A DNA stretch of 64,000 bases from Hyphomonas sp. GTDB lineage: Bacteria; Pseudomonadota; Alphaproteobacteria; Caulobacterales; Hyphomonadaceae. Below the pieces are notes generated by a model. That model was not told the DNA's origin. It searched no databases and saw nothing but the letters and a program-made list of their open reading frames with translations. Positions 23,245 to 48,209 of this stretch are shown one piece after another. The stretch spans positions 20,810-84,809 of the forward strand of contig NZ_PNMA01000017.1 of the NCBI RefSeq assembly GCF_013823385.1, written 5' to 3'. The translations under genes were made by a program, and so were the position numbers. Position 1 is the stretch's first letter, and each line of letters opens with the position of its first letter.

Positions 23245-23256
23245 ACAAACGGCGCT

Positions 23257-23298
23257 TGGCCGGACTCGACCTCCTCGCAACCGGTTGTGCTGTAAAGG
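23257..23298 (+). repeat. Imperfect direct repeat, copy A
   Basis: 42-base unit beginning TGGCCGGACTCGA and ending CTGTAAAGG, placed just after thpR. It matches the unit at 24840-24881 at about 30 of 42 positions without gaps, including a perfect first 13. Confidence 0.5.
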
Positions 23299-23309
23299 CG
23301 CGCAAACAT

Positions 23310-23331
23310 CCTGATCCGTTCCCGGATCAGG
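23310..23331. terminator. Hairpin between thpR and the acyl-CoA dehydrogenase gene
   Basis: Perfect 9-bp stem CCTGATCCG/CGGATCAGG with a TTCC loop between two converging genes. No long T-run, so termination strength is uncertain. Confidence 0.6.
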
Positions 23332-23337
23332 ACGCCC

Positions 23338-24510: not shown

Positions 24511-25007
24511 GGTGCCGCTCCTTCTGCCGGTGAATTCCGGGCAGACCTATGGCACCCCTGCGCGGCCCTTGCACCCCGGCGGAGTGCCGCTTGCCGCCAC
24601 GTCATGACGCATCCTGGAGGTCGCTGATCCGCTCTTTCGAAGGCATCGCGCTTTTCAGCGCATCGCGCGCCGGGGTGCCGGGAAAGGCTCACCCCGTCAT
24701 ATTCTTCACCATCCGGTCAGCACATTCAGATTTTCGCCGGCCGCTGCAATCACGGTCTCGATTCTATGCGCTAACGTATTGTTTTTGGGATATTATATAC
24801 CGCTTCAAACCATCTCGGACCGTCTGAAACGCTCGGACCTGGCCGGACTCGAAGTTGCCGCAAGTTCCTGTTCTGTAATGGAAAAATCCGACCCTTGAGT
24901 CTGGGCCATCAAAAATGCCAACAACATTTTATCGTTATTCGGTATGAGTCCCGATTTTGTCAGAATTCCTGTGGAAAACGTCAGTCTATCTCAGTTCTAC
25001 CGGGCCG
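24511..25007. other. AT-rich junction region at the left edge of the accessory island
   Basis: About 500 bases without a convincing gene. Base composition turns visibly AT-richer from about 24715. It contains copy B of the direct repeat. No tRNA or integrase lies at this edge. Confidence 0.6.
24840..24881 (+). repeat. Imperfect direct repeat, copy B
   Basis: Begins TGGCCGGACTCGA and ends CTGTAATGG; partner of 23257-23298 in the same orientation. It sits about 130 bases outside the hsdR stop. Confidence 0.5.
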
Positions 25008-28238
<3,231 letters not shown>

Positions 28239-28242
28239 CGCC

Positions 28243-30009
28243 TCATATCAGTTTCTCGAAGCCTCGACGGATAATATCCGCCATCAGCCTCCGGCGTTCG
28301 CCAAGGAAAGCATCATAGCTCATTTGTTCCCAATCCGGCGGCAGCGCGTGAAGCTCACACATTCGTCGCCAGTCGCCTTCATTGAAGCGGGCCCGTACCT
28401 CTGGCACATAAGCAGCGGGCGGATTATCACTGATCTCCAGGTTGTCGGGCCATTCAAGCAGGGCAAAGTTGGCCATTTGATTGATCTGCCGAAGGTCTGT
28501 CAGACCCTGCCGCTCCAGCCAGGCGCGCGGGAAGAGATGGTGGCGCTCAAGCGCCTTTCGGCGGGTCTGGATTGCCGGATCGATCAGGTCAGCAACTGTC
28601 TTATGAGAGAACAGCACCGGGGCGCCGAGTTTATTCTGTGCAGCCACATAAGCAAAAAGTTCTGGATTGCGGGCCGAGGAGCTATCGAGGTTCATAGGCA
28701 GCGAAATGGACCAGAAGTCGCTCGTGAGCTGCCCAGCGATGATGTCATCAAGGATCTGGAGAAACTCTTCTCCGCTCTCCACAGTACGGAACCGGGCAAG
28801 GTCGCTGTCCATTACCGTTTCCGGTGAGCTAGTGTAGCGGCCGGTGAGCGATACCGCGAAGAACCAACGCCCAATCGCCTTCTGCAGAAGATGTTCTGGC
28901 ACCCGGTAACGCACGCGGCCGAGGAGGTAGAAGGCATAGCTAAAGAGCAGCGCGTTCTGAGACGAGATCATCTCGGCGCTCCGGAAGCCGGCACCAATCA
29001 GAGCGCTCAGAAACTGATGCCAGTTGGTCAGGTGTAGCACATGCGCCTGAGCTTCCTTCAGCCGGGCGAATTGCTCCTCCCTACGCTCAGCGAGGAAGGC
29101 CCCTGTCTCAGGGTCCTTTCCGCGCAGCACTTGATAGACGCTCTTGAGCCGTCCCCGGCCAAAGGCAATGGCTACAGCCACCCGGAGGAGCTGGTCAGGA
29201 TCCGGCTGGATGAAGTGATTGAAGGGGGACGCAGCGCTGCCCTGCACTGGGGCTATCCGTGAAGCACGGCAGAAGGCTTCCAGATCCGCGCGCCCCTCCT
29301 CCCAGAAGACTGAAAGCAGCGTCAGGATGAAGTCGGCCTGGTTGAGTTTTACGCCCTCGCTGTTGATCCGGACGAAGATGTCAGCAACCTGTTCTTCATC
29401 GACATCCGAGGCGATCTCCAGCGCGGTGAACGGGTACTTCTGGAGATCGAACAGCCGATCCAGATTGTGCGAGATCAGCTCTTCCTCTTCTTCCGTCAGC
29501 GCCTGCTTGGCGGACGCCTGCTCGATAAAGTCGTTCACCAGTTTCCGGCTGGACTTGCCAGACGCCCACATTGTGGAAATGTCAGCGATCCATTCTGGAT
29601 CCCGGCGGATCGCAGCGTCCGCAACTTCAAACTTTCCATCGCGAGGCCGGAAGGCGATTTCGATGCCGCGCGCCTTGTAGTCCTCATCGATGACACTCCG
29701 CCCCCGGAAGACCGCATACAGTGAGGTAAGCCTCTGCTGCCCGTCAACGATAAGCCGGTTGGCCACGGCGCGCGCCTTGGCGTCGGTGCCGATCTGACGC
29801 GAGCCGGTGGCGCTGCCATTCTCCCAGAATAGCAGATAGCCGACTGGAAAGCCGCGATACATGGAATCGAACAGATCGCGCACCTTGGCATTCGACCAGA
29901 CGAAGGGGCGCTGGATGTCGGGCAGGCCAATGTCTCCGACGTCGATGTAGTGCAGCAGGCCACCGAGGTCATAATCCACCCGCTTGAAGCATGTCTTGAG
30001 TTCGCTCAT
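28243..30009 (-). CDS. DUF262/GmrSD-like protein with C-terminal HNH motif, inside the type I operon
   Basis: 588 residues. The N-terminal DUF262 (ParB/Srx-like) domain carries [10 protein letters not shown] at 29-38 and the signature [11 protein letters not shown] at 88-98. The C-terminal part has an HNH/DUF1524-like segment, [13 protein letters not shown], followed by [10 protein letters not shown]. Proteins of this plan include GmrSD and BrxU, which hydrolyse nucleotides and cut phage DNA carrying modified bases. Here it lies between the HEPN gene (13-base gap) and hsdR (4-base gap), so it is expressed with the restriction system. Whether it is a separate type IV activity or an accessory of the type I complex cannot be told from sequence. 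Confidence 0.85.
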
Positions 30010-30022
30010 GAGGTTGTTCCCG

Positions 30023-30490
30023 CTATTTATTAGAGCTGCTTACATTTCGACTGGGACTCGGGGAGAGCAAACCGATCAAATGTTTCAGCTCCCGCTCATG
30101 CAACCTTGCTTTCATCGAAATGTTCGACCGCGAGATGTCATCCAAATCAAATGTCGTTCCGTCGAAGGTGAACCGGCCATGTGCAAATGCATTTCGTAAA
30201 TGCCGGAACAACGCTGCGGCTTGGGCTTCACTTCCAACACTTATGTAAGCGAAACTTCCGGTCGACGGACTAAGTCCCTTACGGAGGTTTTCGTGCAGCT
30301 CTTTGTTGGAGGCATAAGCCCTGAAGTCGATATTCGCCTTCTTCATATAATCCACCCACTCTGCGCTGGGCGGTTTGGGCCATTCTACCTCCCCTACAGA
30401 TAGCTCTTTCTCCCAGCGCAGTATAATGCTTGAGTAAATGAAAGCAGACAAACCTGTACCGAGTGTGGGGGTACGCTGATTTTTCCTCAA
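30023..30490 (-). CDS. Small HEPN-domain protein, probably pEK499-p136-like RNase/toxin
   Basis: 155 residues. The segment LFRHLRNAFAHGRF holds the HEPN catalytic pattern R-x(4)-H (R99, H104) in the context seen in the pEK499-p136 HEPN group. The C-terminal part, ISRSNISMKARLHERELKHLI, is a helical tail. HEPN proteins of this kind are RNases or RNA-binding partners in toxin and phage-defence systems. The ATG overlaps the hsdS stop by four bases, so it is translated from the restriction operon. No partner antitoxin (MNT type) is adjacent; a fused MNT-HEPN gene is 8 kb away. Confidence 0.75.
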   Translation of the reverse strand: MRKNQRTPTLGTGLSAFIYSSIILRWEKELSVGEVEWPKPPSAEWVDYMKKANIDFRAYASNKELHENLRKGLSPSTGSFAYISVGSEAQAAALFRHLRNAFAHGRFTFDGTTFDLDDISRSNISMKARLHERELKHLIGLLSPSPSRNVSSSNK

Positions 30491-31778
30491 AGCGACACAC
30501 CCTCGGCAGTTCGCGCTACTTCCATCTTCAATTCCCCCGAAATCAGGCGCGGCAATAGTAGGTCGCGGGTTTGAGCCAGGGTGCGGGATTCGGCGTTATT
30601 CGTGCCTATCAGTTCGACGTTCGCGGAAAGCGCATCACGAAAGGCCGCCAACACGACCTCGGACGGAATAACGATTTCAGTCGCAGCCACGGCGTCCGGC
30701 CTGACAGCAGGATAGGCGCCGCCATCTGCCAGGTGATTAAGTCGGTTGATGTTCTCGACACTGGTTGAGGCGCACCAAACAAACACCCTGTCTCTTGCGT
30801 TCTTTGGGCGCAAGACAGCGAAACCTGTGCTCCCAGTTAGCCCATCTTCGGCCACATAGCAGAACGAGCCATTCCCGGGACGAACCGTACCAACGATGGT
30901 ATCACCAGCTCGGAGGATGCGGCGCGCCCGGCTCGGCGCATCGGCCCAAGCGTAATTCTCCACTTTGTCGATGCTCCCCCATTTGGTGTTCGCCAAATCG
31001 ACGTATGAGACTCGCGCCGGAGCATTTCGCGCGGTCCAGCTTTCGGGGTTCAGTGAGGCGAGGTCATTGAGAGTTCCCGCTGCCCACCCCTCCGGCTTTC
31101 CCTCGTCGTCGAGGCGGTCGGGGAATAGGGACCAGAGGTCTTCGGAGAGGTAGGCGGGGCGGCCTTCCATCTTGGCGCGGGTGGGGCCGAAGTCGACGAA
31201 CCAGTCCCGGAACAAGGCCCGCGCCATCGCCTCCAACGTCTCGTTCATCTTCCGGTTCAGCTCGATCTTGTCATCGAGCGCGCCTAGGGTGTTGGCGATA
31301 GCGCGTTGTTCGGGGAGAGGAACCGCCGGAATCTCGAACTTCTCGATCATTCCTTTGGTCAGTGCATTCCGGGTTGCGCCAGATGCCGCCAGCCCAAGCA
31401 TGTGAGCCTGCATCTCCGGGGAGACCAGGAAGTATCGCAGAAACCGTGGGTCAATTACTTCAGGATTCGGCCGAATGATTGCGACATGCTGGTTCACCCG
31501 GGCAGGCAAAACTATCGGATCGACCTGGCACACCCGGGCGACGCTATCGCCTGTGATGTTCAAGAGAACATCGCCGGGCTGAACCTCTACGTTCGATAGT
31601 TGGTCAGCTTGATCTTGCGAGATGAACGCGAGCCCGCTAAAGGAAAAACGATCATTCAAGACGTTCTGACTGCGGATGAGGGAGAACGGACCTTCGGCAA
31701 GATATGCTTCTTTGCCGCCGCGTGGAGTCGCGCCGCTGCCGATCTTCAGACAGTGATCTCCGAGTCTAAGGCTCGCCG

Positions 31779-31782
<4 letters not shown>
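30487..31782 (-). CDS. hsdS: Type I restriction enzyme, specificity subunit
   Basis: 431 residues with two target-recognition domains separated by a conserved helical spacer. The first half ends with [32 protein letters not shown] and the second with [42 protein letters not shown]; both are the coiled spacers that set the distance between half-sites. [19 protein letters not shown] opens TRD1. It decides the bipartite DNA site recognised. Overlaps hsdM and the HEPN gene by four bases each. Confidence 0.95.
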
Positions 31783-33317
<1,535 letters not shown>

Positions 33318-33500
33318 GCGGTGTTTTTCCCGTTCGAATTCTGAATGCTACGTTTCATCAGGTAGGTGAGGCGTCAACCGCAATAACCGGGGGCATTCAA
33401 TTCTAGCAGACGAAGAATGACGGGCAGCATCAGTCAATCCAATCATCGCTAGAACGTGAAAGAAACGGCCAGCCAATATAAGCTGCCAATCTTTGCGAGA

Positions 33501-35012
33501 TCACGGCTCAGACGCTCCATCTACGGGCTTCTCTGATTGAGGTTCCTGCCGACCCTCGCCCTGGGTCGGCTGAAACGACGCCGGAGGTGCGGGTTCTGCC
33601 TCTTGCTGTTCGGAAACCTTTTTTGGTTCGTCATCTTCTACAACGGACGGTGAGGTTGCTCCTGCGTTGTTGTTTGGAATCGCCTTGATCGGCACCAGAG
33701 CCACCCACGCCGTGACGAGAAAGGCCAAGGCTACCGAAATTCCGCCAACCCACGAAACCCGCTTAAGGGTTTTCTCGGCATCCAAGCTCGGTTGAATGAC
33801 CAGCTTCTGGTATTCATCAGGCGACAGGAATCTGTAAATCTGGTTCCGCCACACGTCCCTCAATCCTCGCTGCAAAGCGGCAAACCTGTGTCCTGAGTAA
33901 ATCACTACGAAGATATAGCCTGTCACAACAAACATCACCGCAAGCACCAAGAGACCGGGTGCGTTCGCCACGATCCTGGCCGCTATAAGACCGATGCCGA
34001 TGGCCAGCGCAGAGGCCAGCGCGCCAACCACTTGGCGCACGGCATCGGTGATCTTCGCCGTTTCTTCCGTAACTGCCTTCCGGAGATCCGCGAGGGCCTT
34101 CAGGTTATCGGCGCTCACTTTTGCGACGGACATGGCGTGAGCAATCTTGGCGCCCTCAAGAGCGTGGCCCAGATTGTCACGCAGGCATTCTAGTGTGTCG
34201 GCACCCGCGCTTCCGGTGCGCGCAAACTCTGTCGCGAAAAGCGTGTGGCGATTCTCTGCTTCTCGGTCGAACTCGTAAACCCACCTGACCGCGGCCTGCA
34301 GGTTCTCGAAGCCCACACGGCCAATTGTGCCAAAGATGTCTCCGCCAGCTTCCAACTTTGCGAGCGCAAGGCGCGGAGGGCCTCTGAAAACGTATGATCC
34401 AGAGACATGATCGATCTCCGTGGCCAGAGCGGGCAGAAGTGCCCGAACGGCATAGCCGACCCAGAGCCGATACCTGCCGTCTTTTTCGTGCCAAGTCGAC
34501 GGCTCCACGAGAAGCCATTTGCCGATCACACTTGGGACTATCCGGTTTGTTCCGTACTCGCGGACCAGTGTTTGCGGGTTTCGGAAAGATTGCCCGACGC
34601 TGATACCGCTCGAAACCTCTTCCTCCGGAATGAACCGCATGCCTTCAACAGCGAAGGCATAATCCAGCCCGACGACTGCAATCTCTACGCCTTCCATATC
34701 GCTGAGAAGTATTTCGCCAAATCCCGCATCCGATACCACCAACGCTGCCACGTCCAACCGCGTTGGCTTGACGGCTGTGATGCGAAAAGGCCCAAAACTG
34801 TCGTCGAGATCGCCCAACTCAGTCTCATTTTCCGCTCTATCGAATATGCTGGCCTGCCAAGATAGGTCGGCTATCATCCCTGCGAGGACTTGCGCAGACG
34901 CTGCTGAAAGCTCCGAAACCTTCAGCACATCAGGCAACTCACTGACCACCGCACCGGCCGTCACCAATTCATCTAGTTTTAATGCGAGCGTTCTCAGAAA
35001 CGATGCGCTCAT
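33501..35012 (-). CDS. Unrecognised three-TM protein, partner of the NA37-like gene
   Basis: 503 residues from the chosen start (AAGGTCAC ribosome site); a 32-residue longer frame is unlikely. Residues 1-300 look soluble and mixed alpha/beta with no motif I know. A helical stretch at 300-325 leads into three membrane helices at about 329-347, 353-373 and 421-441. A disordered tail of about 60 residues rich in Pro, Glu, Gln and Ser ends the protein. The start lies 44 bases inside the upstream gene, a deep overlap that argues for coupled translation. Sequence is less GC-rich than the core genes, as in other defence islands. A soluble sensor plus membrane effector is a plausible reading, not shown. 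Confidence 0.75.
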   Translation of the reverse strand: MSASFLRTLALKLDELVTAGAVVSELPDVLKVSELSAASAQVLAGMIADLSWQASIFDRAENETELGDLDDSFGPFRITAVKPTRLDVAALVVSDAGFGEILLSDMEGVEIAVVGLDYAFAVEGMRFIPEEEVSSGISVGQSFRNPQTLVREYGTNRIVPSVIGKWLLVEPSTWHEKDGRYRLWVGYAVRALLPALATEIDHVSGSYVFRGPPRLALAKLEAGGDIFGTIGRVGFENLQAAVRWVYEFDREAENRHTLFATEFARTGSAGADTLECLRDNLGHALEGAKIAHAMSVAKVSADNLKALADLRKAVTEETAKITDAVRQVVGALASALAIGIGLIAARIVANAPGLLVLAVMFVVTGYIFVVIYSGHRFAALQRGLRDVWRNQIYRFLSPDEYQKLVIQPSLDAEKTLKRVSWVGGISVALAFLVTAWVALVPIKAIPNNNAGATSPSVVEDDEPKKVSEQQEAEPAPPASFQPTQGEGRQEPQSEKPVDGASEP

Positions 35013-36024
35013 CTGTGACCTTCTTTGTACGAATTGTGATTGTCTCACCGCCGGCCTCGGTCTTCTCACGATTGACCATGGCAGTAGCATCGTCCGGATA
35101 CACAACAACTACGCCTTCCGTAGTGCGCAGCCGCAGCATCGCGGGCTTCTTAATAATCTTTCTATCGGGAGCGAATGCAAGTCCCTCAAGCTTGGCGCTC
35201 TTCACCCTGCGGCCGATAGTCCGATCAATCCGTCCGATGGTCTTCTCGTCCTCCGGATTGCCGGCTGCCGCAAGCACAGCGTCCCGGACCGAATCTTCCG
35301 TTACCATTATGCGGTCATGTAGATGGGCCTGAGCTCGCCTGAACGCAGCGGCGACATCCTTCTCTGGCAAATCGTCTGCGTGCTCAGTAAGCACCTCGCG
35401 AAGCACCTTTACAACTGCCCGACTCAAGTCCTCGTCGCTCCGTGTGCGATTCACCTCCAAGTATTTGGCGAAATAGTCGCCGATGTCTGGTCCGGGCTTG
35501 ATTCTGTCAGTCGCACAAAGGCCAGACTCCGCTTTACCGTCTACGACCCTTACTAGGGCAGCCTTCTGTATCGAACGCTTCCCAGCAACGAAGGCCTGGA
35601 CTATGAGCCGCAGCATAGCATCGACATTACCGTCCGTCTGTTCGACTACTTCCTCATAGTCATACTTAATCAGACTAAAGAACTTAATGTTCGGCAGTCC
35701 AGCGCTAAGCTCAAAAATGAAAAAAGCGCCCTCCCGGCTAGTACCATCGTGAAAGCGGTTGAACTCCCGCGCGAGAGTCTGGGCGCCCGTCTCGAACGAG
35801 AGAGCCCCAGTGGCTATACTTTCGATAGTTCTCTTTGTGCTCGAGGCCGGATCGAAGCCAAAGACAGCTGCAGCGTCACTTTCGCGTATCCGGGCGAGAA
35901 AGAAATCTTCATGTTCCACCGAGCGAGCTGGCTGAGGCACGAATTCGGCGCCACTCACGCCGTGCAGCGCCATGTTCACAATCTTCAAAGAACTTAATTC
36001 GTCGTCACTCAGAAATCCCACCAT
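34969..36024 (-). CDS. NA37/NdpA-like protein (tentative), first gene of a two-gene defence-type unit
   Basis: 351 residues from ATG 36024, preceded by AAGGGGGAAG; the 50-residue upstream extension is rejected. The body resembles the 37-kDa nucleoid-associated protein family (PF04245; YejK/NdpA): LKIVNMALHGVSG at the start, REGAFFIFELSAG followed by FSLIKYDYEE, RSIQKAALVRV, and YFAKYLEVNRTRSDEDLSRAVV. The match is by eye and weak. A basic C-terminus (RIDRTIGRRVKSAKLEG) may bind nucleic acid. It overlaps the membrane-protein gene by 44 bases and is followed by the type I operon after a 183-base gap. Confidence 0.65.
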   Translation of the reverse strand: MVGFLSDDELSSLKIVNMALHGVSGAEFVPQPARSVEHEDFFLARIRESDAAAVFGFDPASSTKRTIESIATGALSFETGAQTLAREFNRFHDGTSREGAFFIFELSAGLPNIKFFSLIKYDYEEVVEQTDGNVDAMLRLIVQAFVAGKRSIQKAALVRVVDGKAESGLCATDRIKPGPDIGDYFAKYLEVNRTRSDEDLSRAVVKVLREVLTEHADDLPEKDVAAAFRRAQAHLHDRIMVTEDSVRDAVLAAAGNPEDEKTIGRIDRTIGRRVKSAKLEGLAFAPDRKIIKKPAMLRLRTTEGVVVVYPDDATAMVNREKTEAGGETITIRTKKVTDERIVSENARIKTR

Positions 36025-36754
36025 CTTCCCCCTTAGATTGTAGGCGTTTTCTGTACTAAATCGTGGCTTTAGGCAACAACCGCGCCGAAACTTACACCCG
36101 CACGCGAATGGTCCCCGGAACGAAAAATCTGTGAAACGCTTTCTAACATCAATTTTGGAACAAATATAGAACAAAAAGCTCCTGGCTAAACGATGACACT
36201 GATCGTCAGATGATCTGAGGCTTCCCTAAGAAACTGGTTCATATGCGACTAACTCCAACTTGCTCATCGCGCGATATCTTTTTCCCGCCCTGCCCCGTTC
36301 CGGGGGCTGTTCGATGGGCGGTTGCCCATCGGCCCGGCTCGGCTCCGGTCCCCACGCTGCCCTGCGGGCCATCGCGGCGCTGCGGGGTCTCCCCGGCAGG
36401 GCGGCGCACAGGCGCTTCCCATTGGCGGGGCAAGGGGGTCACCTGTGCGATGCGTTCGCTCATAAATGTCTGAAGGCGGCGCCTGGTTGTTTCAGCTCCA
36501 CGCGAGACAGGTCAAATCGTGGCGCCGGCATCTCAAAAGCATCAAAGCCTCTGCACACGGCGGGAGGGGCCGGACGTCGCTTATGCCGGGGCGCGGCGGA
36601 CGCGCACGGGGGGCGGGATTATAAGCGTCTGGATTGTTGCTGTCCTCCGACCTGACCCCGTGCCCGCCCGCCTTTTACGCCCCGCCAGCGCGCCTTTCTC
36701 CGCCCCCTCCCGCCTTATGCGGGAAGGCACCCGGGACAGAGAGGAGCACGGATT
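36025..36754. other. Gene-poor spacer between the defence block and ardA
   Basis: 730 bases. The left part (to about 36240) is AT-rich and must hold the promoter of the NA37-like gene. The right part is GC-rich and resembles the long leaders often found before plasmid ardA genes. Short ORFs here have no domain and no ribosome site. Confidence 0.6.
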
Positions 36755-37309
36755 ATGACTGACCCTGTTGAACCAACCCCCGCCGTAGCGGCTGACGCCC
36801 CTGCCCGGCCGCGTATTTATGTGGCCTGCCTTGCCGCCTATAACTCCGGCATCCTGCATGGAAGGTGGATTGCTGTTACCACTCCCGATGAAGTGAAAGC
36901 GGAAGTGGGCGCCATGCTGAGTGAAAGCCCGGTGCCTCGCGCCGAAGAATGGGCAATCCATGACTATGAAGGGTTCGAGGGCATATGCCTCTCTGAACAC
37001 GCGTCCTTCGAGACGGTCTGCGAACTGGCCAGCTTTATTGAAGAGCGCGGCAGGCTGGCGGCGAAGCTTTACAGCCATTTTGGCAACGGTCTCACCGAAG
37101 CCCGCGCCGCGTTCGAGAACTATGCCGGGCAGTATCAGACGGCAGGCGCGTTCGCCGAAGAGATGATCCGGGAAACCGGGACGGAGATTCCGGCTTCTCT
37201 GGAATACTACATCGACTGGCAGGCCCTCGCCCGTGACATGGCGCTGAATGGCGAAATCCTCGTCATCCAGGTCGGCTTTGATGAAGTGCATGTGTTCTGG
37301 TGCCGGTGA
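36755..37309 (+). CDS. ardA: Antirestriction protein ArdA
   Basis: 184 residues, acidic, with the ArdA pattern: RIYVACLAAYNSGILHGRWI at 25-44, EEWAIHDYEGFEG, LASFIEERGRLAAKLY, ARAAFENYAGQYQTAGAFAEE and PASLEYYIDWQALARDM. ArdA is a dimeric mimic of B-form DNA that occupies the HsdM/HsdS complex and blocks type I restriction, usually during conjugative entry. Its presence 3.4 kb from a type I operon on the opposite strand is notable. The ATG directly follows GGAGCACGGATT. A GC-rich, Ala/Pro-heavy N-terminal extension of about 20 residues is seen. Confidence 0.95.
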   Translation: MTDPVEPTPAVAADAPARPRIYVACLAAYNSGILHGRWIAVTTPDEVKAEVGAMLSESPVPRAEEWAIHDYEGFEGICLSEHASFETVCELASFIEERGRLAAKLYSHFGNGLTEARAAFENYAGQYQTAGAFAEEMIRETGTEIPASLEYYIDWQALARDMALNGEILVIQVGFDEVHVFWCR

Positions 37310-38011
37310 AGGTATGTGCCCTCGCGTCTCGCGCGGGCACGCCAAGGCGCCTCAGACAGGGGCAGCGCCCTTGCCGTCAATCTGGGCCGTCCACGGACAT
37401 TCGCGCAGCCCTTCTGCTTCAGTCTGCGTGCCTTGGTGCTCAGTCATTGGACACGCCCTCTTGGCCTTCGGCGGCGCATCAGCAGATCGGCCGGACTGCT
37501 GCCCACTGCGGAGACAGCGATGGGGAAGAATGATCACACCCGCCAGCACGGGCCTTCAATGTCCCCAGACCGGCGAACCCGGTTCGTCGCCGAAGCATGA
37601 GAACGACAGACAGCGAACCGGGAAAGGTCTGGCGGCTCTTCGGTGTGAAGACCATTTGGGCTCAGCCTCGTTGCGAACCATCAGGGCCGATAGTTTCGAT
37701 GAGGTCATGGGAGTGGTTTTCCGGGCACCTGCTTTTCTTCCTCTGGCAAGGTCCGCCCGCCCCCTTGTCTCCGTCTCTTGCCGTTTGACCTGGACGACCT
37801 CCGCCGTGCCTGAAACCGCCACTTTCGAGGAAATTTCCCCTGCGCCTCACGGCGCATTCCTCGCGGCCCAAATTTCCTCTGCGGGGCGGTGCTCCGCTTT
37901 GCTGCGCCCCTGCCGGGTTCAGGCCCGCCGAAGGCCGTCCTCCCGGTCCGGCGTCGACGGGAACAAAGGGTTCCCGGAAGACAAGAGCCAGGAAACGCAA
38001 AGGAGATCCCC
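37310..38011. other. Long GC-rich spacer between ardA and the DUF736 gene
   Basis: About 700 bases with no supported gene. The last 150 bases are GC-rich with repeated GGGGCGGTGCTCCGC-like words, a composition usual before DUF736 genes on alphaproteobacterial plasmids and integrative elements. Confidence 0.6.
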
Positions 38012-38335
38012 ATGGCAAACGCACTCGGATACGTCACCGAAACCAAGACCGGCTTTGAAGGCACCCTCGCCATGATGAGCCTCTCAGCCCCCCTCATCAT
38101 CCGGAAGAACGCGGACAAGACCGCTCCGGCCCAGCCCGACTACCGCATCTTCGCAGGCGATACCGAAACCGAGATCGGCGGCGGCTGGATCATGAAGGCG
38201 AAATCCAGCGGTAAGGAGTACATCTCCCTGACCCTCGCAGACCCCCAGATCGGGCCGCGCCGGATCTACGCCAACCTCGCCCCGGTCAAAGGCAAGAAGG
38301 GCCGCTACGCCCTCCTCTGGAACCCAGGGGAGTGA
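38012..38335 (+). CDS. DUF736 family protein
   Basis: 107 residues with the DUF736 pattern: LGYVTETKTGFEGTLAMMSL, a DYRIFAGDTE-type strand pair, GGGWIMKAKSSGKEYISLTLADP and KKGRYALLWNP. Small beta-rich protein carried by alphaproteobacterial plasmids and integrative elements; function unknown. AAAGGAGAT is a strong ribosome site and the start MANALGYV matches the family. A good marker that this stretch is mobile-element DNA. Confidence 0.92.
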   Translation: MANALGYVTETKTGFEGTLAMMSLSAPLIIRKNADKTAPAQPDYRIFAGDTETEIGGGWIMKAKSSGKEYISLTLADPQIGPRRIYANLAPVKGKKGRYALLWNPGE

Positions 38336-38340
38336 AAACC

Positions 38341-38367
38341 GGCCAGCCGCGCCCCGCGCGGCTGGCC
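38341..38367 (+). terminator. Hairpin after the DUF736 gene
   Basis: Perfect 12-bp stem GGCCAGCCGCGC/GCGCGGCTGGCC with a CCC loop, five bases after the stop codon. Only CTTCCC follows, so it may act as an mRNA end stabiliser more than as a terminator. Confidence 0.65.
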
Positions 38368-38446
38368 CTTCCCGGCTTACGGCAGGCTCAACTGAAGGGA
38401 GGATTGGCGCTTTGCACGCCGTGCGGCGCTCCTTAAGATGACGATG

Positions 38447-39367
38447 ATGCGAACCGACCTCGACCACCTCCCCCATGGCAAGCAGCGCGAACTCGCCCGC
38501 GTGACGGAAATCCTGTTCGAGGAATTTGCTGACGCCATGGCGGGCGCTTCTTCCCCGACGAAGAAGCAAGGCCGCATCCTCAAGATCATCCTCTTCGGGT
38601 CGTATGCACGCGGGACCTGGGTGGACGAGCCCCATACCGCGAAGGGATACCTCAGCGACTATGACCTGCTGATCGTCGTCAACCAACAGAGCGTCGTTGA
38701 TTTCGCGACCTACTGGTACCGGGCCGAAGACCGGATCATGCGGGAAACCAGCATCAGGACCCCGGTCAATTTCATCGTGCACACGATGGACGAGGTGAAC
38801 GATGCCCTCCGCCAGGGCCAGTACTTCTTTACCGACATCATCAAAGAGGGCATCGCGCTTTATGACCTCAAGGGCAGCACGCCCTTCGTGACGCCACAGC
38901 CGCAGACGGCCGGGGAAGCGCTGACCACTGCAGAAAAGCACTTTGAGGTAAGGTTTCCTCGGATTGAACAGGCCCTTACAGGCGCCAAGTTCTACGTGTC
39001 TGTAGGCAACCTGCGTGACGCAGCATTCACATTTCACCAAGCCGTGGAGCGCGCCTATACTTGCCTGCTCCTTGTAGAGACGAATTACTCGCCATCAACG
39101 CACAGCATAAAATTCCTACGCTCCCTTGCAGAGCAGATCGACCCGAACCTGATCACAGCTTGGCCGCGTGAGACGAAGCATGACCGGCGGCTGTTTGAAT
39201 TGCTCAAGCGCGGATACATTGATGCGCGGTATTCAGAGCACTACGCCATCACAGTTGAGGAGCTTGCCTGGCTCGGTGAGCGGGCGGAAGTCCTTCGGGA
39301 GCTTGTGGGAAAACGTTCGCAATGCAAAATCGAGCAATTGAGAGATGGCGCGCTATCCAGTGGTTAA
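38447..39367 (+). CDS. Nucleotidyltransferase-HEPN fusion protein
   Basis: 306 residues from ATG 38447 (two more in-frame ATG codons lie just upstream at 38438 and 38444; no clear ribosome site for any). The N-terminal minimal nucleotidyltransferase has IILFGSYARGTW and LSDYDLLIVV, i.e. the GS...DxD metal site. The C-terminal HEPN domain starts near GEALTTAEKHFEVRF and contains FTFHQAVERAYTCLLLV. In two-gene MNT/HEPN toxin-antitoxin pairs the transferase AMPylates and silences the HEPN RNase; here both are one chain, so control would be internal. Typical cargo next to DUF736 and ArdA. Confidence 0.88.
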   Translation: MRTDLDHLPHGKQRELARVTEILFEEFADAMAGASSPTKKQGRILKIILFGSYARGTWVDEPHTAKGYLSDYDLLIVVNQQSVVDFATYWYRAEDRIMRETSIRTPVNFIVHTMDEVNDALRQGQYFFTDIIKEGIALYDLKGSTPFVTPQPQTAGEALTTAEKHFEVRFPRIEQALTGAKFYVSVGNLRDAAFTFHQAVERAYTCLLLVETNYSPSTHSIKFLRSLAEQIDPNLITAWPRETKHDRRLFELLKRGYIDARYSEHYAITVEELAWLGERAEVLRELVGKRSQCKIEQLRDGALSSG

Positions 39368-39672
39368 GTTCTTCACCGGGAGTGGGCGTTTCTCCAGCAT
39401 CCAGCAGGAGCGCATCATGTTCTCGCCGAAAGTACAAAGATATCGCAGTTCTTTGTTGTCTGCAGTTGGCGCGAACGAAAATTGAAGGGATCGCTCTTCA
39501 CTTGGTCAAATTAGGCACAGTGCAGCCACTTGGACGCACCGACCGGCACTTCACGTTAAATCTCGAAGTCAGAAACTCGTGCATGAACCAAGTGAAAGGA
39601 TACGGCAAAATGCTGCGATCGTAAGAATACCGCACCTGTTTGGCCAGAGTACGCAATTTTTACGCTACCAAG
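39368..39672. other. Spacer without a supported gene
   Basis: About 300 bases, AT-richer than the flanks. A short plus-strand ORF starting inside the end of the preceding gene has no recognisable domain. Confidence 0.55.
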
Positions 39673-39978
39673 TTAGAAGCCGAGAAACGACTTGGCAGCT
39701 GACATGTTAGGAGCGTAGCTTATGTTTGACTGTCCGAAGTCTGACACAAGCGCAGGCTCCAGAACCCCTCCTCCAGTTTGATAGTCTTTTGTATTCGAAG
39801 ACAGAAAAACTGCTGTGGTTTGCATTCCTGCGGCGCGCAGCGAATCTAGTGCATCCAGATAGGTTTCAACAACAATGCAGTCTTTCGAAGATTCCTTGCC
39901 TCTGCGCGCTGGGGCGATGTTTTGATTCATTCGCTTCATCGCGCGGACGGCAATTTCATCCCTAGTAGGCAAGCGCAA
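39673..39978 (-). pseudogene. Remnant of a PIN-domain ribonuclease gene (C-terminal part only)
   Basis: About 100 residues in one open frame. CIVVETYLDALDSLRAAGM, FLSSNTKDY and LVSDFGQSNISYAPN match the last third of DUF4935-type PIN proteins, where the strand, SSNTKDF/Y motif and DF/IxYxxN end occur in this order. The N-terminal part with the first acidic residues of the active site is missing, and no frame upstream (right) supplies it before the integrase region. It is most simply a truncated gene left by element insertion or decay. It could also be a short expressed fragment. Confidence 0.6.
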
Positions 39979-40106
39979 TTTTTGGTAGTTTCATGCCGTT
40001 TCATTGGGTTGCGGAACGCTCCTTACTATCCCTGTATATATTGAATTATTTCACGATTCATGCTCCCTTAGGTTTCATCGCGTTTTTCTTCAAGCAGCGG
40101 CCAAAT

Positions 40107-40190
40107 GGGACCCGGGGTCCTTGACCCCCTGTATGAGGCTTGGAGCCGAAATCGGATCGTCTGGGGGTCAGAAGTCCCTCCCGGGGTCCC
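40107..40190 (+). promoter_or_regulatory. Nested palindrome over the integrase leader
   Basis: Outer arms GGGACCCGGG (40107) and CCCGGGGTCCC (ending 40190), inner arms TGACCCCC (about 40122) and GGGGGTCA (about 40162). The right outer arm ends directly before the AAAGGAGGAA ribosome site of the integrase. As RNA it would form a long hairpin next to the start; as DNA it could be a binding site for the integrase or an excision factor. Confidence 0.65.
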
Positions 40191-40201
40191 AAAGGAGGAA
40201 T

Positions 40202-41491
40202 ATGATGCGACAGAATATGACAGCGCGCTTCGTGGAAACCATCAAACCCAAGTCAGGCGAACGCCTCACCGTTACAGACTCAGTCGTCGAAGGGCTGGAG
40301 CTTCGGGTCGGCACGAACGGCTCAAAAATGTGGTCGCTGCGCTACCGGACAAAGGGCGGTAAGCGAAACAGACTTTCCCTTGGACGGTATCCCGCCCTCA
40401 CACTCGCCGAAGCGCGGGACCGGGCCATCCAGGCGCTCGCGGCTGCTGTCAGTGGCGGTGATCCGGCAGCCGTCAGGAAGACCGAGAAAGCGGAGGCAAT
40501 CGCGGCAGAACGCACTGTCGAGGATCTCGCTACAGCGTTCTTTGCCTCGCCCGAAGCCGCCCAGCGCACAAAGCAGACAAACATCATGGAATCGGGGGTC
40601 TGGCGAAACCACCTCGCTCCGAAACTGGCAAAACGTCCATTGCAGGAACTGAAACGCGGCGAAGTGCGCGCCTGTATCCGGGAGGTCGCCGAAGCCTCCG
40701 GGAACAGGACAGCAAATTATACCCATGCTGTCCTGCGACGGATCTATAATTTTGGCATCCGGGAAGAATGGGTCGAGATGAACCCGGCTCAGTTTCCCCA
40801 GCTCTATCAACACAGGTCCCGCGACCGCGTCCTGAGTGAAGCTGAAATCCGGCTATTCTGGCAGACCTGGTCGGTGGCAAAGACCGGCGGGAAGCTGGGC
40901 GTGTCCGAACCCATCGCGATCGCCCTCCAGCTCTGCCTGGCAACGCTGCAGCGGGCGGGCGAAATCATCGGCATGCACACGGATGAACTGGACTGGACCA
41001 CCCGGTCCTGGGTGATTGCGTCGGAGCGGTCGAAGAACCGGAGGTCCCATCATGTGCCCCTCTCTCCTCTCAGCCAGCAGCTGATCCGGCGAGCGCTGTC
41101 GCTCGCCACAGCGACCGAAGTTCCAAAAGATATCGATAAACCCCTGCCGCGGCTCGTCGCCGATTACCGGGGCCACGTCTTCCCGGCGATCCATGGCAAC
41201 GGGCCGGTAGATCGTCACGTCGTCACGCGTGCCATGAGCCGGATCCGTGAGAAGCTGAACATCGACAATGCAACCGCCCATGACCTGCGCCGCACAGGCG
41301 CAAGCATGATGGCGTCCGAGCGGTGCGGCGTGCGCGGAGAAGTGATCGCCCGCATCCTCAACCACACACCGCTCGGCTCACCGGTCACGCAGATCTATAA
41401 CCGGTATGACTATGCGGCGGAGAAACGCGCCGCGCTCGAACTCTGGGCTGAAACCCTGCTGAAGATAAGCAGTGTGGCGCAGTCAAAATAG
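40202..41491 (+). CDS. int: Tyrosine recombinase, P4-type integrase
   Basis: 429 residues. The N-terminal arm-binding DUF4102 domain reads RFVETIKPKSGERLTVTD and SLRYRTKGGKRNRLSLGRYP; a SAM-like core-binding domain covers about 105-190. Catalytic residues: R251 (in ATLQRAGEI), H360 and R363 (HDLRRTG), H388 (LNH) and Y399 (QIYNRYDY). GGAGGAATATG sets the start, 66 codons after the ORF opens. P4-type integrases insert elements, often at tRNA 3' ends, but no tRNA is seen near either end here. All catalytic residues are intact, so it could be active. Confidence 0.94.
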   Translation: MMRQNMTARFVETIKPKSGERLTVTDSVVEGLELRVGTNGSKMWSLRYRTKGGKRNRLSLGRYPALTLAEARDRAIQALAAAVSGGDPAAVRKTEKAEAIAAERTVEDLATAFFASPEAAQRTKQTNIMESGVWRNHLAPKLAKRPLQELKRGEVRACIREVAEASGNRTANYTHAVLRRIYNFGIREEWVEMNPAQFPQLYQHRSRDRVLSEAEIRLFWQTWSVAKTGGKLGVSEPIAIALQLCLATLQRAGEIIGMHTDELDWTTRSWVIASERSKNRRSHHVPLSPLSQQLIRRALSLATATEVPKDIDKPLPRLVADYRGHVFPAIHGNGPVDRHVVTRAMSRIREKLNIDNATAHDLRRTGASMMASERCGVRGEVIARILNHTPLGSPVTQIYNRYDYAAEKRAALELWAETLLKISSVAQSK

Positions 41492-41614
41492 CAAATAAAC
41501 TGAATGACATCTCAGCCTCGTCCGATGCGGCTAAAGATACACCCCCCACGGCTTCTTGCGGGGATGCGCTTTTCCAGCGCGATCACTAGAAACGTTGTAC
41601 GATTCTGCAACGGC

Positions 41615-42436
41615 CTAATCGAGAAGCTTGTCTTTCAGGGCGCTCACATCTATTTCATCTAAACCGTACACGGTCTTTACAAATGATTCGATGGTCCCGT
41701 GCTGTCCTTCCAGCTCGGAGAACGTTGCCCTTATATAGTCGGGATGGGACATGAGAAGCGGCTCAACCACCTCCTCAGCGAGCTCGCGCAACATACTTTG
41801 CCCGTGCAGCCCGGAGGGGGTCTTGTCGTCGAGGCCAAGCTCCTTTCGGTAATCCACGATCCGGGCCGACAGCGCGTAATCTTCGATGACGAGAGGCTCG
41901 GGGACACCCAACAGAGACAGGATGATGGCAGCCAGGACCCCGGTTCTGTCTTTTCCGGCGGCGCAATGAAACAGAAGCGGAAACTCTCCTTCAGCCAGGC
42001 ATCGCAAGACTGATGCATAAGCCTCAGCATGATCGTAGGGCAGGCGCCTGTAAAGTTTTAGCATTAAATCGGTCACGGCTTCCGGCCGCAGGTCAGGGTC
42101 TGTAAACGTGGCGGCCATCGCATCCAGGTTGCCATTGTCGCCCGACTGGAAGCCGGCCTGCCTGACAGGGTTGCCGACCCAGACAGTGGGTAAGGCGTTG
42201 CGTTCCTCCGGGGTTCGCAAGTCAAACACGCCTTTCAGCTCCAATCTGTCGATTTTGCGATAGTCAGACTGCGTCAGCTTATTCAGCCCTGCAGAACGGA
42301 AAATCTGATATCTCCTAACGGATTTTCCGCAGACGGTAGGATATCCACCAAGATCACGGAAGTTCTGCGCTCCCTGCAGTTTCAGGACGCGGCTGGGAAC
42401 ACTTCCTGCGTAGGGTTTGAATGTACGTATCCACAT
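41615..42436 (-). CDS. Tyrosine phosphatase-like protein (Y_phosphatase3 type)
   Basis: 273 residues. Signature loop FHCAAGKDRTG with nucleophile C158 and R164; NFRDLGGYPT near the N-terminus and LKGVFDLRTPEER are the other family marks (PF13350). Members dephosphorylate phosphotyrosine, phosphoinositides or small phosphorylated molecules. It ends a run of minus-strand genes that includes a kinase-like phosphotransferase, so a small-molecule phosphate substrate within the same pathway is a fair guess. The start at 42436 has no strong ribosome site; an internal Met is possible. Confidence 0.88.
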   Translation of the reverse strand: MWIRTFKPYAGSVPSRVLKLQGAQNFRDLGGYPTVCGKSVRRYQIFRSAGLNKLTQSDYRKIDRLELKGVFDLRTPEERNALPTVWVGNPVRQAGFQSGDNGNLDAMAATFTDPDLRPEAVTDLMLKLYRRLPYDHAEAYASVLRCLAEGEFPLLFHCAAGKDRTGVLAAIILSLLGVPEPLVIEDYALSARIVDYRKELGLDDKTPSGLHGQSMLRELAEEVVEPLLMSHPDYIRATFSELEGQHGTIESFVKTVYGLDEIDVSALKDKLLD

Positions 42437-42565
42437 ATCCGCCTTCTATCCGATTTTATCGCATGCTTGGGCCCACCGGAATTCATTGCCGCGCCCCCGC
42501 CGACAGAGATCAGCGGATTGCTGACGCTGGTAGAGTTTGCGAAACAAGACCGCGACGTCGCGTTC

Positions 42566-43642
42566 TCATGAACTCATGATGCGCTGGGCCATGTCCCAGT
42601 AAAATGCAGTCATGGCCTTGTACTGGGCGGCAATATCTCCAGGGAGATATCTCGACATGGACCCCATGCAGATCAGAATTTCATAAGCGGCGTGCACCTT
42701 ATAATAGCTCAGATCGCCGATCGGCTTTCCACCGACATCCGCATACATTGAAAGCCAGTCTGCTTCTGTGGGCGGAGCGACCGGCAGACTTGCCGCATGC
42801 GGCCGATGTGGATCCATTGAGACAATCTGAATTGCCAGATCGAGCTCCGCCGCGCCGACCGAACTCAGCTCCCAGTCAAGCATCGCAGAGACACGATTGT
42901 TATGCAGCAGATAATTGCCGAGATTGGGGTCTCCATGCATGAGCACAGGCTGTCTGATAACCGGCGCATTTGTCAGCAGCCACTCATGGATCGGAAGCAA
43001 GCGCTCATAATCATCGGGCCTGGCCCAGTCCCAAGTCTTGCGCCACCAGTTAATGAATTTCTCCGGCGGCGACCCGCCATGGGCCTCTTTCGAAAAATCC
43101 GCCAGGCCGTAAGCGGCGTAGTCGAGACTGTGCACGGCTGCGAGATTGCGAAGAATGTCGAGATAAATTTCACGGCGCTCAGGCTGAGTTGCTTCCACAA
43201 GTGGACCACTGGTGAACAATGAGGTTGGAATGGGGGCGCCGGGTGCACACTCCATAAGGAACCCCGATACGCCGAGCATTTCACCGGACGCGTCCAGACC
43301 GTAGACGCGGGGTACCTTCACAGGCGCGTTCTGAAGTTTTTCAAGCAGTTTATACTCTGTATCAAGGTCGTACTTGTAGAATATCCGATTGTCCGTCTGG
43401 GGATCATACCTCAAAACGAGCTGCTTCTGTTCGGCTCTACCCCGTTTCAGTATCTCGGCGGAAAAAACCAGAATTCCGGAAGATGAACCCGATTTCGCGG
43501 CGCCGCCCCCTAGTTCACCCAGCCGAATATCAGCGGAAAAAACGTCTTCCAGAAATCCCTTCAGCCGGGTGGCGTCAATTTTTGCGTAGTTTCCCTTTGC
43601 GGCCGCAACGCTTTGATCCAGCGTATTCGATAAATCATTCAT
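42566..43642 (-). CDS. Phosphotransferase family protein (APH/ACAD10-like kinase), copy 1
   Basis: 358 residues with the aminoglycoside phosphotransferase fold: QKQLVLRYDP for the ATP-lysine strand, Brenner motif HGDPNLGN at 236-243 and the metal motif LDWE at 255-258. This subgroup usually sits in acyl-CoA or lipid catabolic clusters. Mammalian ACAD10/11 kinase domains phosphorylate 4-hydroxyacyl-CoA, which allows removal of the hydroxyl group; a like role is possible here but unproven. A second, clearly diverged copy is at 50809-51936. GGAGGAAGC gives a good ribosome site. Confidence 0.88.
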   Translation of the reverse strand: MNDLSNTLDQSVAAAKGNYAKIDATRLKGFLEDVFSADIRLGELGGGAAKSGSSSGILVFSAEILKRGRAEQKQLVLRYDPQTDNRIFYKYDLDTEYKLLEKLQNAPVKVPRVYGLDASGEMLGVSGFLMECAPGAPIPTSLFTSGPLVEATQPERREIYLDILRNLAAVHSLDYAAYGLADFSKEAHGGSPPEKFINWWRKTWDWARPDDYERLLPIHEWLLTNAPVIRQPVLMHGDPNLGNYLLHNNRVSAMLDWELSSVGAAELDLAIQIVSMDPHRPHAASLPVAPPTEADWLSMYADVGGKPIGDLSYYKVHAAYEILICMGSMSRYLPGDIAAQYKAMTAFYWDMAQRIMSS

Positions 43643-43722
43643 AGCTTCCTCCTGAAAAACCGCCGTGTCTGCGAACGGCTTCTGCTTTTAGTTCGCTGGT
43701 TTGAGAATTCGATCTGAGATCG

Positions 43723-44754
43723 CTATCGGATCCACCCCGGATCAAAGCTGCGCTTTGTCAATCCGTCTTCACAATTTGCAAACAGCGTATGAGACACCGC
43801 CGCTTCGCCCTGACGCGGATTATCGATCATGTTGAAGTCGCAGACGCCGGCACGCCCGTTCCAGCGCGGGATCGACAGGGCTTCAACACCAGCCGGAGAG
43901 GAACCCGGACCTCCGTTGTTGAGGTGTGTGGACGTCACCACCCCGTCGACCGTGTCGACATTGATGCGCAGGGTTTCGCCATTCTCCAGTTTCACAACAG
44001 ACCACCCGCCGATGACAGAGTAGCCGTCACACAGCGTGGAGCTCACGGTATGGAAATCCCGGATGGTCTGCCGCTCACCCAGGAGCATGACCCAGCCGAA
44101 CTTGTGCATTTCGCCGCCCTGATCGTGCATGCTTATGAGAGAGTAGGACATGTCCGGTCCGACGGTACCTGCATGCCATCTTGCGGACCGGAACACAGCA
44201 TGAGGCCGGGCGCCATATCCGTGGTCGCGATACGCAATGCCATTCTCGATATTGATGACCCGGTCACCAAACCGGATGCGGCCCTCGAGCCTGCCCGCGC
44301 TTTCAGGATGACCGGAGGTTCCGACGGTTTCTTTCACAGATCCAGAGACGCTCGACAGCTCCTTGCCGTGATTGGGGCCACCCACGAAGGACCAGTCCTG
44401 AGACGGGAACCAGTCATAAACCCGGAGATCAACATCAGCATCCTTGTCCCACGCTTCAAACCGGCAATACTTCATGTCAGGAATGGAATACTTCGCGGTG
44501 CCTGAGCTGGCCGTTGTTTCAGTCCGGTCCCCGGGCTGAAGCTTGCGATCCAGCAGATGGCGGCGAAAGCGGGTCCCGTCCGGAAGGGCCATACCCCAGT
44601 GGGTCTGAGTCGTGCCCTGATTCACATAGGCGCCCGTTCTCAGGAAACCGACGGCTCCGGATATGGGATCACGGAAGACAAGAACCCAAGACTCCTGCCA
44701 GTCAGGATGATCGCTCGGTTTATGCGGCAGATCTACTTCGGAATAGAGTGACAT
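43723..44754 (-). CDS. DUF7064/AttH-like protein, copy 1
   Basis: 343 residues, beta-rich, no signal peptide. QESWVLVFRDPISGAVGFLR, GNAIAYRDHGYG-like text (ENGIAYRDHGYGAR) and RSARWHAGTVG are the best recognised parts: a lipocalin-like double-barrel family related to AttH and carotenoid hydratase, common in steroid, terpene and lipid catabolic clusters of sphingomonads and mycobacteria. The biochemical role is unknown. A relative at 53225-54220 shares the same plan (QES...W, R-D-x-x-W/G, FSGTVGPELS). It lies between the P450 and phosphotransferase genes with short gaps, so is probably co-transcribed. Confidence 0.75.
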   Translation of the reverse strand: MSLYSEVDLPHKPSDHPDWQESWVLVFRDPISGAVGFLRTGAYVNQGTTQTHWGMALPDGTRFRRHLLDRKLQPGDRTETTASSGTAKYSIPDMKYCRFEAWDKDADVDLRVYDWFPSQDWSFVGGPNHGKELSSVSGSVKETVGTSGHPESAGRLEGRIRFGDRVINIENGIAYRDHGYGARPHAVFRSARWHAGTVGPDMSYSLISMHDQGGEMHKFGWVMLLGERQTIRDFHTVSSTLCDGYSVIGGWSVVKLENGETLRINVDTVDGVVTSTHLNNGGPGSSPAGVEALSIPRWNGRAGVCDFNMIDNPRQGEAAVSHTLFANCEDGLTKRSFDPGWIR

Positions 44755-44799
44755 AGGCCCTCCCCTTGATTTTGTTATCTCAGGCTACTGATTTCTGTA

Positions 44800-46092
44800 T
44801 CAGGCCGGCTTGAATCGGATTGGCAGCTTCTTGGGACCACTGATAAAATTCGACTGCGTCCATTTCGGAGGCCCCGCAAGCTCTATCGATCGGATACGCG
44901 GAAGCAGTTCCTCAAACAGTATCCGCATTTCAAGCCGCGCCAGGTGCTGGCCCAGGCAGACATGTGGACCATAGCCAAACGATAGCTGCCGGTTAGGGGA
45001 ACGATCAATGCGGAAGTGATCCGGATCGTCGAACACGGCCTCATCCCGATTGGCCGACATGTAAGACAGCATTACCCAATCGCCCGCCCCGATCCTCTTG
45101 CCGCTGATCGTGTAATCAGACACCGCCGTACGCATGAAATGTTTCACCGGGGTCGTCCAGCGGATGGCTTCCTCCACGAGACCGGGAATGAGGGACGGAT
45201 CGGACTTGACCGCCCGCAACTGATCGGGCGCCTCCGCCAGGGACCAGATACCCCCGGCAGTGGACGCAGACGTGGTGTCATGGCCCGCAGTGGCGACCAG
45301 GACGTAGTAGCTGTTGGCCTCATGTTTTGAGATCGGCTTTCCGTTGATCATCGCATTGGCAATGACCGATGCCACGTCGTCCCGTGGCGCCTGCCTGCGA
45401 AGCTCTGTCAACTGATCGAAATAGGCATAGAAATCCCTGAGCACGGAATCGAACACTGTCAGGGCCGTGGCAGGATCTGCCATGGCTCCAGCATCCCTGC
45501 TCTTTTCGGGGTCACGCGCTCCAAACAATTGCTGGGTCAGCGCCAGCATCATCCCCTCATCCTTTTCCGGGACACCGAGGATCTCCATGATCACATGCAG
45601 CGGATAGTGCAGCGCCACATCATCGACAAAGTCACACGCACCCTCCCGCTCGAGCATTCTATCAACCGCCTGGCGGGCAATTTCCCGGATGCGCCCTTCA
45701 AGTTTCCTCAGGCTGCCGGCAACAAACCAGGCCTGTGTCAGCATCCGGTAGGTCCGGTGTTCGCTGCCATCCATGTTCACGACGGACCGCGTCAGATGAG
45801 GCGAGCCCTGTTTAGCTTCGATTGCCTCTCTCATATCACGGGGAACAAGAACCGTGGACCGGTCTTCATTGCGGAATATGTCCGCCTGCCGCTCGATCTC
45901 AAGGATGTCCGCATGCCTCGTGATCAGCCAGAAAGGGTCAAATCCGGGTGCCTCCACTTTGCGCACAGGATCGTGCGACCTCGCCCATGCCAAAGCCTTA
46001 TGGATTGGCTCGGGCTCAGCAAAGCTGCGGGGATCGGTAAGCAGGCGAGGCAGGCCGGACTCGGATTCTGCTGACAGAGAGGAATGGGTCAT
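44800..46092 (-). CDS. Cytochrome P450
   Basis: 430 residues, soluble bacterial class I. The I-helix oxygen motif is AGHDTT (269-274), the K-helix ExxR lies in EEAIR (307-311), and the heme loop is FGYGPHVCLG with the thiolate C379. The start at 46092 follows GAGGGTGTT; a 52-residue frame extension upstream is not supported. The sequence resembles P450s acting on terpenes or steroid side chains (CYP108/111/125-like flavour), by eye only. No ferredoxin or reductase is encoded nearby, so redox partners must come from elsewhere. Probably hydroxylates the substrate imported by the nearby TonB receptor. Confidence 0.95.
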   Translation of the reverse strand: MTHSSLSAESESGLPRLLTDPRSFAEPEPIHKALAWARSHDPVRKVEAPGFDPFWLITRHADILEIERQADIFRNEDRSTVLVPRDMREAIEAKQGSPHLTRSVVNMDGSEHRTYRMLTQAWFVAGSLRKLEGRIREIARQAVDRMLEREGACDFVDDVALHYPLHVIMEILGVPEKDEGMMLALTQQLFGARDPEKSRDAGAMADPATALTVFDSVLRDFYAYFDQLTELRRQAPRDDVASVIANAMINGKPISKHEANSYYVLVATAGHDTTSASTAGGIWSLAEAPDQLRAVKSDPSLIPGLVEEAIRWTTPVKHFMRTAVSDYTISGKRIGAGDWVMLSYMSANRDEAVFDDPDHFRIDRSPNRQLSFGYGPHVCLGQHLARLEMRILFEELLPRIRSIELAGPPKWTQSNFISGPKKLPIRFKPA

Positions 46093-46192
46093 AACACCCT
46101 CAAGAAAGTACACATCACAAGCGAACCATTCGGAGGCGCTTGATCCCTGACGAGCGTTCCGCCCTTCAGGGATCTTGCATCCGCACGGGGGG

Positions 46193-47956: not shown

Positions 47957-48013
47957 TTTAGCCTCCCGAGAGAAGAGTGAATTGCGTTTTGCTTTACTTT
48001 AACAGCCTACAAA

Positions 48014-48023
48014 TTTGCATTAT
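48014..48023 (-). promoter_or_regulatory. TTTGCATTAT word upstream of the amidohydrolase gene
   Basis: One of three TTYGCATTAT occurrences in the catabolic region, all in intergenic AT-rich promoter DNA (others at 51956 and 54300). Candidate operator; it may bind one of the Lrp-type regulators. Confidence 0.4.
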
Positions 48024-48132
48024 GCTTTTTTTCTAACTCTTGTCAAATGTTTGCGAACTTTTATCTGGTGTAAATTTAGCAGATCCACCTCCAAAAATAT
48101 CGCCCGCTGGACAGACGCGGTTGTCACCGAGG

Positions 48133-48169: not shown

Positions 48170-48209
48170 AGTTGGCTGGCGCGGCGAAGCGCTTACCAGG
48201 AGGAATAAA

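Follow-up and report, generated by a model that had tools for sequence, protein, structure and literature searches.

A travelling gene pair for a divergent YejK-like protein and a predicted membrane protein, a candidate anti-phage module of Proteobacteria

What do two overlapping genes of low GC content do at the edge of a type I restriction operon, when one of them recalls a nucleoid-associated protein and the other appears to sit in the membrane? The window analysed here, a 64-kb stretch of Hyphomonas DNA, carries such a pair, which we name A and B. The features referred to below are the following:

34969..36024, minus strand: gene A, 351 aa, ATG at 36024, predicted DNA-binding sensor with a YejK (NA37-like) fold
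33501..35012, minus strand: gene B, 503 aa, ATG at 35012, predicted membrane effector
34969..35012, minus strand: overlap of A and B, 44 nt
31779..33317, minus strand: HsdM, type I restriction-modification methylase, neighbour outside the pair
30487..31782, minus strand: HsdS specificity subunit, neighbour
28243..30009, minus strand: DUF262/GmrSD_N protein between hsdS and hsdR, neighbour
25008..28238, minus strand: HsdR, neighbour
40205..41491, plus strand: tyrosine integrase by domain match, in the same island as the pair
23245..61973, no strand: strain-variable island carrying the pair, from synteny with same-genus genomes

The locus and its island

The coordinates of the open reading frames bear out the 44-base overlap reported in the original prediction, as well as the position of the pair directly upstream of a type I restriction operon, the start of hsdM (33317) lying 183 bp past the stop of B on the same strand. 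After hsdM, this operon continues with hsdS, a 155-aa ORF, the DUF262/GmrSD_N gene and hsdR; the DUF262/GmrSD_N protein and the 155-aa ORF (28243-30490) may represent an add-on defence gene inside the operon. By inspection, a purine-rich, ribosome-binding-like stretch stands directly 5' of the starts of both A and B, and a search of 33200-36400 for sigma-70-like promoters gave none. The lower GC content attributed to the pair is real, at 0.560 (A 0.542, B 0.569) compared with values of 0.638 for the left flank (1-23244) and 0.639 for hsdR, but it is not a property of the pair alone, since the whole island has a value of 0.591 and the dip is thus partly common to it.

Synteny with a genome of the same genus (G330), 93% identical over the left flank, breaks at 23244 and restarts at 61974, over a 149-bp stretch, and again at 62496. 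In three further same-genus relatives it ends at 23244-23269, with no restart within the 20-40 kb compared. This break and restart place the pair inside an island of about 39 kb that varies between strains; its left edge rests on four same-genus genomes and its right edge on one (G330). No direct repeat of at least 13 bp linking the two island edges was found, and no tRNA was found within the window. B is present as a single copy in its own genome. The same island additionally encodes, at 38438-39367, one protein combining nucleotidyltransferase and HEPN domains, and, at 39673-39978, a 101-aa ORF that PIN_12 matches in part and under its cut-off (E 2.8e-4), and that is perhaps a remnant.

The two proteins

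The product of A had been described as resembling the NA37/NdpA family only faintly, and the Pfam NA37 profile (PF04245) agrees, scoring it at 19.2 bits, below the curated cut-off of 24.6. Across the A family, NA37 is matched by 43 of 70 members at E <= 0.01, the best at 4.3e-19. The structure model of A, with a pLDDT of 90.4, is matched by Foldseek to E. coli YejK (9be2) with an E of 1.8e-7 and 13% identity, the match taking in almost all of A; KwaB of the Kiwa system is not named among the matches listed. On the strength of this model, A appears to be a divergent NA37/YejK protein with the YejK fold, which may bind DNA. No nuclease family was recognised in it by Pfam, and zero PADLOC or NCBIfam models match it at E <= 1. 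When the PF04245 profile was run over 289 genomes of the window's class, it found no match at E <= 0.01; as the A of the own genome was likewise missed, this absence speaks for classical NA37 only. A separate search gave a sub-threshold PF04245 match (8.3e-4) in one genome of the class.

The layout foreseen for B, a soluble part followed by three membrane helices and a disordered tail, is also that of its model (pLDDT 87.9). Residues 1 to about 270 form the soluble part, helices span 273-349, 353-395 and 398-439, and from residue 446 the tail is acidic and disordered, nearly all of it with a pLDDT below 50. Three hydropathy peaks, at about 331-349, 353-371 and 422-440, lead us to predict three membrane passes, with the soluble part probably cytoplasmic and the tail outside, judging from the charges. 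Among 75 members of the B family, 60 have three peaks, 11 have four and 4 have two, and in 12 of the 75 a peak lies ahead of residue 250. Conservation is strongest at GPPRL (211-215), at 250-265, at L304-Q327, right before the first pass, and at R385-P408, after the second.

No Pfam, NCBIfam or PADLOC family matches B above chance, no effector domain was recognised in these libraries, and the SLATT Pfam family has no match in B at E <= 1. Searched as a whole protein, the B model has no fold match in the PDB at E <= 0.001, the search of viral folds giving the same result, and the matches of its long helices are uninformative in such searches. A protein search at E <= 0.01 yielded 151 homologues of A and 85 of B, the own A and B counted, so that the two genes are no chance pair of open reading frames.

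The pair in other genomes and its neighbours

A scan of genome contigs with the B profile found 34 loci in Rhizobiales, Sphingomonadales, Acetobacteraceae, Pseudomonas, Rhodanobacter and Stenotrophomonas, in 33 of which A lies directly upstream of B. In one locus (L002) A is split over two broken frames, and another (L005) holds a fragment of B without A. The two genes also stand side by side in 3/3 loci from genomes of the phylum, in four of the five plasmid loci examined, where B itself is in pieces in L040 and L044 keeps a remnant of B next to IS26, and in four of five loci on viral contigs, where L049 starts inside B at the contig edge. When the B remnants L040, L044 and L049 are set apart, both genes are present in 46 of the 47 sources examined. 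A Klebsiella B remnant used as a DNA query had IS26 as the matches listed, none of which spanned more than 10% of it.

Judged from the aligned B start, A and B overlap in 42 of 44 near-full-length pairs (a set without L002, L005 and L129). Over these pairs the distance matrices of A and B correlate with an r of 0.976, a value that 0/2000 shuffles reached, and which is to be read knowing that the set contains copies (L013/L033, L029/L047, L038/L042) and that shared descent inflates such a correlation. Run separately over 299 genomes of the phylum, the A and B profiles pick out the identical four genomes, the own one among them. A and B clearly travel together as a real unit.

This unit is accessory and not core. 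Among 61 relatives, B turned up in the own genome only, and it is absent from 30/30 of the best core YejK loci, each viewed over about 4 kb. The non-housekeeping character that had been ascribed to the pair is thus upheld, and lone homologues occur only as remnants or at a contig edge, none of them in a core genome setting. In the tree of A proteins, a close and well supported group brings together Gluconobacter, Jiella and a Sphingomonadales genome, a mixing of orders that fits horizontal transfer. The carriers include a chromosomal island, symbiotic plasmids, an IncC-typed plasmid and predicted viral contigs. On the conjugative, IncC-typed plasmid pKAZ5 (L147), a divergent A-B pair adjoins a RadC gene.

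Known defence genes are found near the pair in several hosts. Type I restriction-modification lies close to it both in the window and in L012. The surroundings of the Methylocystis pair (L041) include a PLD/DUF1156/DUF3780/DUF499 anti-phage set, two DUF262 genes and integrases. Among the 17 large neighbours, drawn from 14 loci, four have a PADLOC match at 1e-20, namely a DISARM-type DrmD (L007), DrmA (L015), Tmn (L014) and a DpdJ/MkoA match (L004), and the other 13 have none. The 125 nearest neighbours include matches to PtuA and PtuB (Septu), two proteins each, and two integrases. PADLOC families matched number 192 near the pair (125 proteins, 33 loci, without L005) against 71 in 33 arbitrary control windows (131 proteins, without one further protein and the window L073, which lies next to a carrier locus), a contrast that is only a rough one, as families and not proteins are counted and sister models inflate the counts. 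Given that the control windows also match PADLOC, the enrichment in defence genes near the pair is moderate.

No family of neighbours is shared by more than six of the 34 loci, with many neighbours lacking a known function. Seven neighbours from the window, used as queries over the 34 loci, found relatives only for the restriction-modification proteins (L012) and the integrase (L013, L033). Three Pseudomonas loci (L017, L020, L031) share the same three genes left of the pair, over about 2.4-8.1 kb, and differ on the right side, as at an insertion hotspot. Overall, we consider it likely that the pair is a defence module.

NA37 modules, known systems and the readings of the pair

Classical NA37 occurs in 52 of the 299 phylum genomes. 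Second, accessory copies were met in a family to which we give the label Enterobacterales, inferred from its E. coli-like and Pantoea-like members, where NA37 was found in 161 of 246 genomes, 19 of which have two matches. In G929, G953, G1044 and G1058 the second match looks like a split core gene and was not counted, so that 15 genuine second copies remain. All of them are followed on the same strand by an ORF, which either overlaps the NA37 gene or begins no more than 14 bp past it, and the product of this following gene is a predicted membrane protein in ten cases and soluble in five. The partner is B in three (L129-L131, L129 at E 6e-10 only) and another predicted membrane protein in seven (L118-L123, L132), of 388-523 aa and with hydrophobic stretches after about 285-370 residues; despite this same layout, no homology of these proteins to B is detectable. 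In four (L124-L127), the partner is a protein of 329-331 aa, with a RelA_SpoT domain in both of those tested (L124, L126). In the remaining locus (L128:3873-6932), the second NA37 has two soluble partners of 306 and 380 aa, of no known family. Ahead of NA37, L126 encodes a 162-aa protein with a SLATT_4 match of 2.6e-4, below the family cut-off, and L125 a protein of equal size.

In E. coli, DNA matches revealed the kind with NA37 and a membrane protein in 2 of 5426 genomes and the kind with NA37 and RelA/SpoT in 9 of 5426, six of these nine being matches to the RelA/SpoT-type gene alone. Both kinds are thus rare, and they lie near integrases and tRNA genes. The membrane-protein kind adjoins a restriction endonuclease in L133 (10019-12393) and is split by IS1 in L134. 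In L135 (9977-12551) and L136 (7286-9806), a SLATT- or DUF4231-annotated gene accompanies NA37 and a 'GTP pyrophosphokinase' near tRNA-Thr and an integrase. Two Pantoea-type A-B pairs used as DNA queries had no match in E. coli, a search that divergent pairs could escape. The RelA/SpoT operons resemble A-B in having an accessory NA37 beside a membrane protein in some loci. In them, however, the membrane part is encoded on its own, as a small protein, and it is a RelA/SpoT-type protein that follows NA37. This combination amounts to a second kind of NA37 module that merits a study of its own.

A midpoint-rooted tree of 85 NA37 proteins, from which L132 and L128 were left out for their long branches, comprises 45 that are paired with B, 30 core proteins, six paired with other membrane proteins and four paired with RelA, each class on one side of a supported branch. 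The RelA-paired clade joins the B-paired one at 100/97. Partner type therefore tracks NA37 ancestry. A is also distinct from the housekeeping protein: even though it shares the overall fold of E. coli YejK/NdpA (NA37, PF04245) over nearly its full length, the low identity, the core loci devoid of B and its place on the other side of the tree set the two apart. The chances are about even, in our view, that NA37/YejK has been recruited as a sensor for a class of immune modules, each clade tied to its own effector (the three-pass protein of A-B, a membrane protein laid out alike but unrelated to it, or a SLATT-like pore together with a RelA/SpoT-type protein), and that in the window's lineage the fold would serve only as an immune sensor. 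Such a pattern, with one sensor fold and several partners given by ancestry, could be used to find more systems.

The original prediction knew of no named system with this pair. This stands insofar as neither protein has a PADLOC or NCBIfam match at E <= 1 and no description of A-B was found in the literature searched. It does not stand for the kind of module, which is no longer wholly unknown, since the available text of the DefensePredictor study (PMC13092281, Science 2026) lists a YejK nucleoid-associated domain among the newly validated defence domains, from 94 E. coli units challenged with 24 phages, 42 of them protective. Like A-B, where the likeness of A is by fold only, that system is an accessory transcriptional unit with a YejK-type domain, and it reduced plaquing in E. 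coli MG1655 according to the same text. Its partner is left unnamed there, and the legend of figure 3C explains TM as transmembrane and CC as coiled-coil, with the system not specified in the text. Our guess is that a B-like partner, or one of the same layout, is meant; the partners in the E. coli NA37 modules seen here are unlike B. If our reading holds, A-B would be the second example of a nucleoid-associated protein fold in immunity, spread across several proteobacterial orders, and it would name a likely effector (B) where the available text of the published E. coli case names none.

How might the pair act? We lean slightly towards an anti-phage sensor-effector module, in which A senses invading DNA and B disrupts the inner membrane, phage being the presumed target. 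A would meet and grip the invading DNA or its nucleoprotein and would then contact B, whose conserved helix next to the first membrane pass may relay the signal. B would in turn disrupt the inner membrane and halt the infected cell, so that the outcome would be membrane damage and growth arrest, that is, abortive infection, and not the destruction of DNA. This raises the question of how a member of a chromosome-coating family would tell phage from host DNA.

The main rival is a tether of the kind suggested by Kiwa, where B would merely anchor A at the inner membrane and A would grip the entering DNA and block its replication, with no killing of the cell. Both systems consist of two proteins, one in the membrane (KwaA in Kiwa) and one facing DNA (KwaB), and the available text on Kiwa describes KwaA and KwaB as working at the membrane without cutting DNA (PMC12904381), a plan to which a nucleoid-protein fold lacking a recognised nuclease family would be well suited. 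However, with 503 aa, an extensive soluble part and a highly conserved membrane-proximal helix, B exceeds what an anchor would need, and the gene order differs from that of Kiwa. No PADLOC model matches A or B, in a library that we take to include the Kiwa models; at the family level, neither the 75 B nor the 70 A members match Kiwa at 0.1, the scattered weak PADLOC matches among them being 0.0021 at best. Additionally, the NA37 partners found elsewhere include SLATT-like proteins, whose helices are called predicted toxic pore formers in the available text of PMC12483538, which sits better with an effector than with an anchor. We hold the tether to be unlikely.

Less probable again is a housekeeping role in the service of the carrier element, whose DNA the pair would compact, silence or position, with no part in defence. 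NA37 being a family of nucleoid proteins, the presence of the pair on plasmids and on an island would suit such a task, as would the ParB-family gene near the pair in L041 and the link between an NdpA gene and a mobile element noted in the available text of PMC10561277. Against it stand the differing types of carrier, the lack of any neighbour family common to more than six of the 34 loci, and the defence genes near the pair in several hosts.

A sensor-effector module is also to be preferred over a toxin-antitoxin pair, with B as a membrane toxin and A as a DNA-binding antitoxin and autorepressor kept by addiction, which we regard as the most doubtful reading: the overlapping order of a DNA-binding-type protein followed by a membrane protein would fit it, as would the finding of B without A only as a fragment, an IS26-adjacent remnant or a contig-edge case, but the partners in toxin-antitoxin systems are usually much smaller than 351 and 503 aa, and the recurrence of NA37 with unlike partners fits a sensor better than a neutraliser.
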